The notes beneath the pieces are model-generated. The model did no database searches. It worked only from the letters and a program-made list of their open reading frames with translations, and was not told the origin of the DNA. 64,000 nt of DNA from an uncultured bacterium (GTDB taxonomy: Bacteria; Cyanobacteriota; Vampirovibrionia; Gastranaerophilales; Gastranaerophilaceae): contig CASEYP010000029.1 in NCBI GenBank assembly GCA_949292185.1, positions 62,001 through 126,000 on the forward strand, in the 5' to 3' direction. The first letter of the stretch is position 1, and the number at the start of each line of letters is the position of its first letter. Made by a program: the position numbers and the translations under genes. Shown in pieces: positions 45,274-47,069 of this stretch.

Positions 45274-45528
45274 TTAAGCCAAAAGGTCAATATTATTAGC
45301 TAAATGTTCGGAAGTTGCATTTGGACGCAAAAGACTATAAGGACCATCTCCATATATTGCCTGTGCAAAATCTGATGTATTATAATTTGAAGCTTGTACC
45401 GTCAAAGGATTAGATGCAGCAGACATAAGTCTATACAGTTTAATTCCTCTAGACGGATCCGTATTATTATAATCCATCACTTTTCCAATAGGTGCAGTTG
45501 AATTTGAACCTGAGTAAACGTATACCAT
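45274..45528 (-). CDS. Small protein of unknown function (84 residues)
   Basis: It is Ser/Asn/Tyr-rich with no signal peptide. The start MVYVYSGSNSTAPIG is followed by DYNNTDPSRGIKLYRLMS, and it ends NATSEHLANNIDLLA. An AAGGAT ribosome site precedes the ATG with about 7 bases spacing. No family is recognised. It lies between two terminators, which supports a separate transcript. Confidence 0.55.
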   Translation of the reverse strand: MVYVYSGSNSTAPIGKVMDYNNTDPSRGIKLYRLMSAASNPLTVQASNYNTSDFAQAIYGDGPYSLLRPNATSEHLANNIDLLA

Positions 45529-46445: not shown

Positions 46446-46589
46446 AATTTTATCCCTCTCAATTATCTCAAACTACTAATATTAGTATAAATCACATATT
46501 ATGCATTTTCATTATATTAAGTAATATTACAACTTATAAAAATAATATAGCAATTTTATATACAAAAAATACTTTATATATATGTAAAC

Positions 46590-46710
46590 ACGAGGACGTG
46601 CTTAATTGAGGAATCAAAAAGGACTTAAGCACACACTTCACACTTCACTATTACGAGGAATGGCTAAAAGTTTACATTCCAAGAGCTCTTCTTTTAGAGC
46701 TCTTTTTTTT
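46590..46710 (+). ncRNA. Candidate small RNA with three hairpins and a terminator
   Basis: Three stems in a row: GTGCTTAA (46598-46605) with TTAAGCAC (46625-46632); GGAATG (46657-46662) with CATTCC (46675-46680); and AAGAGCTC with GAGCTCTT at 46681-46704 followed by T8. The last stem is a clear terminator. No ORF with a ribosome site fits. Five GGA triplets are seen in the unpaired parts and loops. ACGAGGA occurs twice. TATATA-type -10 candidates lie at 46577-46583. A free-standing regulatory RNA is the simplest reading. Confidence 0.6.
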
Positions 46711-46723
46711 ATGCAAACAAGAC

Positions 46724-46870
46724 CTAATCAGCCTTTTCAGTAAGATAAACTTCGGCTAACTTACCTGAACGATTATTTTTAAAGCGAATAATTTTTTGCT
46801 CAGGTTCTTTAGGTTTAAACTCATCTTTTTGATAAGCATATAAAAATTTCATAAATTCTTTACTATACAT
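46724..46870 (-). CDS. Small basic protein (48 residues), unannotated by length
   Basis: MYSKEFMKFLYAYQKDEFK is the start; it ends AEVYLTEKAD. An AAGGTG ribosome site is 5 bases upstream of the ATG. It is soluble, Lys/Glu-rich, with no domain recognised. Its frame is clean and codon use agrees with neighbours. The 242 bases from 46871 to 47112 hold only the promoter region of the SLH gene. Confidence 0.5.
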   Translation of the reverse strand: MYSKEFMKFLYAYQKDEFKPKEPEQKIIRFKNNRSGKLAEVYLTEKAD

Positions 46871-47069
46871 AAAAACACCTTCACACAATATTATTGAAAA
46901 CCTTCACATATATATAAAAACACAAAACAGATAAATATTGCTAAGTTATAAAGAATTTGTTACAAAGATAGTAATTTAAATATCACCCACTTGAATAAGT
47001 AGTTTTGCTAATGTTTTAAACTCTGTCAAAAGTACATAATCTGGTATAAGTTTGTTTTTTAAATAAAAA

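Follow-up and report, generated by a model that had tools for sequence, protein, structure and literature searches.

Introduction

The sponge RNAs CsrB/CsrC and RsmX/Y/Z carry many repeated GGA motifs, end in a terminator and contain no open reading frame (ORF). In Cyanobacteria, the two conserved small RNAs (sRNAs) Yfr1 and Yfr2 carry nearly complementary motifs, and Yfr2 is reported to counteract Yfr1, one RNA relieving the repression exerted by the other (PMC6778093). Yfr1 is 54–69 nt long and holds the ultraconserved, unpaired ACUCCUCACAC between two stem-loops (PMC2190773), and Yfr2 is multi-copy and occupies unconserved loci (PMC6778093, PMC2190773). A literature search, at the level of listed entries, returned nothing relevant on small regulatory RNAs of Gastranaerophilales.

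Here we describe an sRNA gene of an uncultured member of this order, found in a stretch of 64,000 nucleotides (the window), and compare it with these systems. The RNA is called A, four other sRNAs are called B, C, D and E, and G000 denotes the genome from which the window derives.

Gene structure and upstream region

The gene for A lies at 46583-46710 on the forward strand (G000:C29:108583-108710) and ends at a T-run, giving a predicted RNA of about 125-128 nt. Its conserved block opens with TGTAAAC at 46583, so the transcript probably starts near 46583-46590, slightly 5' of the interval originally noted. The original prediction had described ordered stems, a clean terminator and no ORF, and each of these features was borne out. 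The minimum free energy of 46590-46710 is -32.5 kcal/mol (z -4.6), a stability reached by 0 of 200 shuffles, and the fold contains three helices. At the 5' end, the element UAAACACGAGGA (46585-46596) is a perfect complement of sRNA C (UCCUCGUGUUUA). Helix 1 (46598-46632) pairs GTGCTTAA (46598-46605) with TTAAGCAC (46625-46632) around an apical TTGAGGAATCAA, and leads into the G-free linker CACACACTTCACACTTCACTATT (46630-46652), for which unpaired probabilities were computed and which is invariant in the genus except for repeat number and small insertions. The 3' module ACGAGGAAUG..CAUUCC (46653-46680), common to the paralogs described below, contains helix 2 (46657-46662 with 46675-46680). Helix 3 with the T-run (46681-46710) forms a covarying intrinsic terminator; 46681-46704, followed by T8, is the sole terminator-like site of the region (shuffle mean 0.1). 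All of these elements are on the forward strand. The ORF list for A holds a single 45-aa TTG frame that crosses the terminator, and we rejected a coding RNA on the grounds that the AUG within GGAAUG reads GGAAUU in several orthologs and is hence unconserved.

Upstream of A, a promoter-like block AATATAGCAATTTTATATAC..AAAAATACTTTATATATATG (46544-46583, forward strand) is conserved within the genus. A consensus promoter scan did not call this block, and its promoter function is putative. Its ATACTTTATATATATGTAA part also stands 5' of other genes and sRNAs in the same genome, and mRNA leaders behind the same promoter begin alike (GTAAACACGATAGA). At L105, L109, L110 and L111, the ATACTTTATATATATGTAA block precedes clustered small-protein genes and, by reading, a ribbon-helix-helix-like gene, with the blocks in tandem about 360-380 bp apart. 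Following the upstream block of A to its other occurrences led to sRNAs B and C.

No Rfam family matched A at its gathering score, the best sub-threshold hit being sau-6072 (22 of 50 bits). A shares with 6S RNA the character of a free-standing conserved sRNA, but 6S RNA (RF00013) gave no match in A; the 6S match of G000 lies elsewhere (G000:C2:148123, below the gathering score), as it does in 53 of 59 genomes at E <= 0.001. A phage or viral origin was likewise rejected, with no match in phages and the exact linker 20-mer in 0 viral contigs.

Conservation across relatives

BLAST with a 161-base query recovered the complete A RNA in 32 of the 36 genomes of the genus; G005, G019 and G030 hold incomplete copies cut off by the contig edge, and G018 gave no match. 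The other 23 genomes returned only short promoter-like matches to this query. Each of the 32 full-length loci has both the linker 20-mer and the 5' element. Searched as an exact string in genome contigs, the linker 20-mer occurs in 45 stretches, 41 of which are A RNA and four of which are unrelated by context (L045, L049, L070, L072). Named contigs with A are Gastranaerophilales or Melainabacteria metagenome-assembled genomes, many from rumen and gut. One contig labelled Muribaculaceae (JAMPCZ010000080.1) carries A together with a Gastranaerophilales-type surE and is probably mislabelled or mis-binned.

Of the 31 loci with enough flank (two were too short), 22 have a divergent surE gene some 185 nt upstream of A. 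Since surE is missing from some loci and the right-hand neighbour changes from locus to locus, A is taken to be a free-standing gene. Two small ORFs on the reverse strand, 46724-46888 (54 aa) and 45274-45528 (84 aa), have homologs near many orthologous loci and no match in Pfam.

An alignment of 40 genus sequences comprises UGUAAACACGAGG, helix 1 (UGCUU/AAGCA), the linker CACACUUCACACUUCACUAUU, a GGAAU..AUUCC hairpin and a variable terminator, with the CACUUC linker among its most constant stretches. The patterns used to collect this alignment and a larger set of 49 sequences demanded the 5' ACACGAGG and nearly demanded the 3' module and the linker, so conservation of these parts is partly by construction; the 32 full-length loci found by BLAST provide the unbiased count. 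A covariance search across relatives had been proposed as a check on the original prediction. In the set of 49, most positions of helix 3 covary, and the closing pair of helix 2 is GC in 39 sequences and UA in five; covariation was not significant in the nearly invariant helices 1 and 2. RNAalifold on the MAFFT alignment gave helix 2 only, because the terminator was misaligned. The linker of these 49 sequences holds one, two or three ACUUCAC repeats, and some relatives have more by reading (L252).

Together, these comparisons show A as an independent RNA gene with its own promoter-like block and predicted terminator. As a conserved, free-standing, terminated unit with variable right-hand neighbours, it deserves its initial description as the clearest non-coding RNA candidate of the stretch; judged from sequence, the non-coding RNA gene is real and is widely conserved among uncultured gut bacteria whose genus is without CsrA.

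GGA motifs and the CsrA and Hfq searches

Five GGA motifs had been claimed for this RNA; we count four (46594, 46610, 46621 and 46657), a number that does not clearly exceed chance, being reached by a fraction of 0.0895 of dinucleotide shuffles. What is non-random is the larger unit: GAGGA is present three times (0.0005 of shuffles), and ACGAGGA, as previously noted, occurs twice (46590 and 46653; 0 of 2000 dinucleotide shuffles). The placement of GGA outside stems holds in part: one GGA is in an apical loop, but helix 2 uses the fourth as its 5' arm, and pairing with CUUC is open to the GAGG of the first. Of 49 sequences, 43 retain GAGGA at the first of its three places, 41 at the second and 48 at the third, with the first and third figures partly forced by the search pattern. 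In several orthologs GGA has become GGG or GGC within an otherwise retained ACACGAGG, an argument against GGA being what is recognised.

A check for csrA in the genome had been proposed, and the CsrA profile (PF02599) gave no match in G000 or in any other of the 36 genus genomes; 17 of 23 other genomes and the control genomes were positive. Across the order, CsrA is present in 90 of 241 genomes. Likewise, the Hfq profile (PF17209) matched 0 of 59 genomes, with controls found, and A is accordingly not placed among the Hfq-dependent sRNAs.

A multi-copy RNA family

Of 241 genomes searched across the order, 137, from 30 of 50 genera, contain the 3' module, sought as ACGAGGAAU-N5-18-AUUCC; 137 is an upper figure, because some matches (such as L228, L229, L233 and L251) resemble coding sequence and probably arose by chance. 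A backwards control pattern matched few genomes. CsrA is encoded by 26 of these 137 genomes, leaving 111 without it. A-type RNA was recognised by context in six sampled genera of the family (g18, g22, g23, g24, g25 and g27; linkers of the kind GCACACUACACUUCACACUAUU), and other RNA types combine the same module with linkers such as CACUACCUACUACACACUAACCUUCUACAC. The common plan consists of a 5' ACACGAG element, a G-free CA/CU linker, the ACGAGGAAU hairpin and a terminator. G000 has three module copies, namely A and its two paralogs D (C14:37516) and E (C20:123990), each followed by a terminator-like hairpin and T-run. By this sequence comparison, A is shown to belong to a multi-copy family of sRNAs in gut-dwelling Gastranaerophilales. 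One locus (G114:C6:73250-73850) has two near-identical D-type sRNAs in tandem, 230 bp apart, and similar spacing recurs in further genomes of two genera.

Predicted pairing among the small RNAs

Both RNAs reached through the upstream block are encoded on the reverse strand of their segments, and neither locus matched Rfam. sRNA C (G000:C31:79589-79779; about 440-299 of segment L159, 79300-80600) is about 142 nt long, and sRNA B (G000:C7; about 444-313 of segment L123, 82700-83700) carries AUUCCUAUUCCUAAUUCCUAG. Matches to C above 95 bits were obtained in 42 of 46 genus genomes (exceptions G025, G027, G028 and G065). C contains a stretch that is near-invariant in the genus, ACUCUCUCUCUUAAUAUCCUCGUGUUUAUUUAAUGUUGCC, and its seed ACUCUCUCUCUUAAUAUCCUCGUGUUUAUUUAAUG is conserved across the family; of 23 sites from other genera, picked for exact matches to the seed, 22 retain the seed together with its CU run. 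Some genera that lack the A module nevertheless have C. B has matches in all 46 genus genomes; in 43 these score at least 85 bits, and in the other three the best match may represent the shared promoter alone.

In G000, A and C share 12 nt of perfect complementarity. Their duplex energy is -45.7 against a shuffled mean of -30.0 (equalled by 1 of 500 shuffles), and cofolding gains -15.4 against -7.2 for shuffled sequences (1 of 100) and leaves the remaining helices of A intact. Both RNAs could be compared in 29 genomes (three others yielded no C to compare), and in every one of the 29 the longest perfect complement lies at the 5' end of A, at its position 3 or 4; it measures 13 nt in 12 genomes, 12 nt in 14, 11 nt in two and 9 nt in one. 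C hardly varies within the genus, and compensatory changes can therefore not prove this pairing; the C seed is moreover mostly paired in the predicted fold of C and would have to open.

Two other sRNAs, B and D, are predicted to pair with C as well as or better than A does. B and C are complementary along some 30 nt, interrupted by a bulge, with 15 nt as the longest perfect run, at -39.3 against -8.1 for shuffled sequences (0 of 500 and 0 of 100 shuffles), and 0 of 100 shuffles pair as well as D with C. Pairing of E with C was no better than chance (66 of 100 shuffles), and a sponge formed by A and B through GAGGAAU and AUUCCU was rejected at chance level (74 of 500 and 91 of 100). The string AAACACGAG is found at eight places in G000: directly in A, B and D, as its complement both in C and in a 3' UTR belonging to a sigma-like gene, and at three coding-looking sites. 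The sigma-70-like gene, so named by reading (L223; G000:C7 around 201152), has UUUCUCGUGUUUAUUU in its 3' UTR before a terminator-like hairpin, and this segment resembles the C seed. The perfect 5' complementarity of A to C suggests a network of mutually pairing sRNAs, and sRNA C as RNA partner would account better than CsrA for the 5' GAGGA copy.

Discussion

We infer, with a probability of roughly 50%, that A is a trans-acting, base-pairing sRNA of the family that works without Hfq and without CsrA, contacts mRNA through its linker and is coupled to the hub RNA C. Target mRNAs would be contacted by the G-free CACACUUCACACUUCAC linker, which is single-stranded and, as a seed, would meet mRNA sites of the GUGAAGUG type. 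Our search for such targets found 17 near-matches to the linker complement besides the linker itself, no more than in the control, and none lay clearly at a start site. The 5' ACACGAGGA of A would pair with UCCUCGUGU of C, coupling A to a hub that is common to B and D; we propose that C and its ACACGAG-tagged partners thereby titrate or destroy one another.

Several other readings can be set against base pairing of A with both C and mRNA. A might have no mRNA target of its own and simply titrate C, along with its 3' UTR relative, freeing the other targets of C. This is rather unlikely, although the 5' complement of C in 29 of 29 genomes, the second ACGAGGA copy and the multi-copy paralogs are all in keeping with it, as is the way in which Yfr2 is reported to counteract Yfr1 (PMC6778093); the very constant CACUUC linker is not complementary to C, however, and C persists in genera that have no A module. 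Titration of a protein other than CsrA, through repeated ACUUCAC and/or GAGGA, would give meaning to the variable ACUUCAC repeat number and to the three conserved GAGGA places, but the protein searches, which covered CsrA and Hfq, yielded no candidate, and we regard this explanation as unlikely. The complementarity could also be incidental, with ACACGAG a leader set by the promoter or by initial transcription and A, B, C and D unrelated stable RNAs. The similar mRNA leaders behind the same promoter are what such a leader would produce; against it, C contains the complement and not the leader, the B-C pairing far exceeds that of shuffled sequences, and in D the motif is found more than 30 nt downstream of the inferred transcript start and not at the start itself, making coincidence decidedly unlikely.

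Two further possibilities have far less to recommend them. It is very improbable that A is the riboswitch or attenuator leader of a downstream gene: some minimum-energy folds do contain alternative pairings ahead of the terminator (UGUAAAC with GUUUACA), but downstream neighbours differ, the nearest one here is on the opposite strand, and Rfam gave no match. The long-range UGUAAAC/GUUUACA stem itself was rejected as unconserved, its GUUUACA arm being lost in L017, L019 and L030. The CsrA-type sponge, the function to which the original prediction had likened this RNA, is scarcely tenable. The apical-loop GGA and the presence of CsrA in other genera of the order are compatible with it, yet the absence of CsrA matches in the genus contradicts it there, barring a CsrA too divergent for PF02599, as do the GGA changes within a retained ACACGAGG, and most module-carrying genomes are also without the protein.

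Extending the base-pairing reading of A to the whole family gives a more tentative picture, which we consider possible but doubtful. In it, gut Gastranaerophilales would share an Hfq-free network in which a hub sRNA uses its ultraconserved seed, roughly 30 nt long (ACUCUCUCUUAAUAUCCUCGUGUUUAUUU), to read the address tag ACACGAG within the 5' portions of A, B and D, each of which has its own targeting region; the network would persist without CsrA and be an independent counterpart of Yfr1/Yfr2. If this is right, uncultured gut relatives of Cyanobacteria regulate via interlocking sRNAs, without Hfq and, in module-carrying genomes, mostly without CsrA.

Among known systems, A resembles CsrB/CsrC and RsmX/Y/Z in its repeated GGA, its terminator and its lack of an ORF, and differs from them in belonging to a genus without CsrA, in having four GGA and not many, and in being built from GAGGA(AU) and a CACUUC linker. 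It is like Yfr2 in having several copies at unconserved loci (the three module copies of G000) and a motif complementary to a second conserved sRNA, as seen in every genome pair compared and rarely matched by shuffles (1 of 500 and 1 of 100). In contrast to Yfr1, neither A nor C contains the undecanucleotide ACUCCUCACAC, and their lengths are about 128 and 142 nt compared with 54–69 nt. On our best reading, the network of A and C would work like Yfr1/Yfr2, the nearest known arrangement; with the Yfr1 motif absent, the likeness to Yfr1/Yfr2 extends to the proposed manner of working rather than to demonstrated membership.
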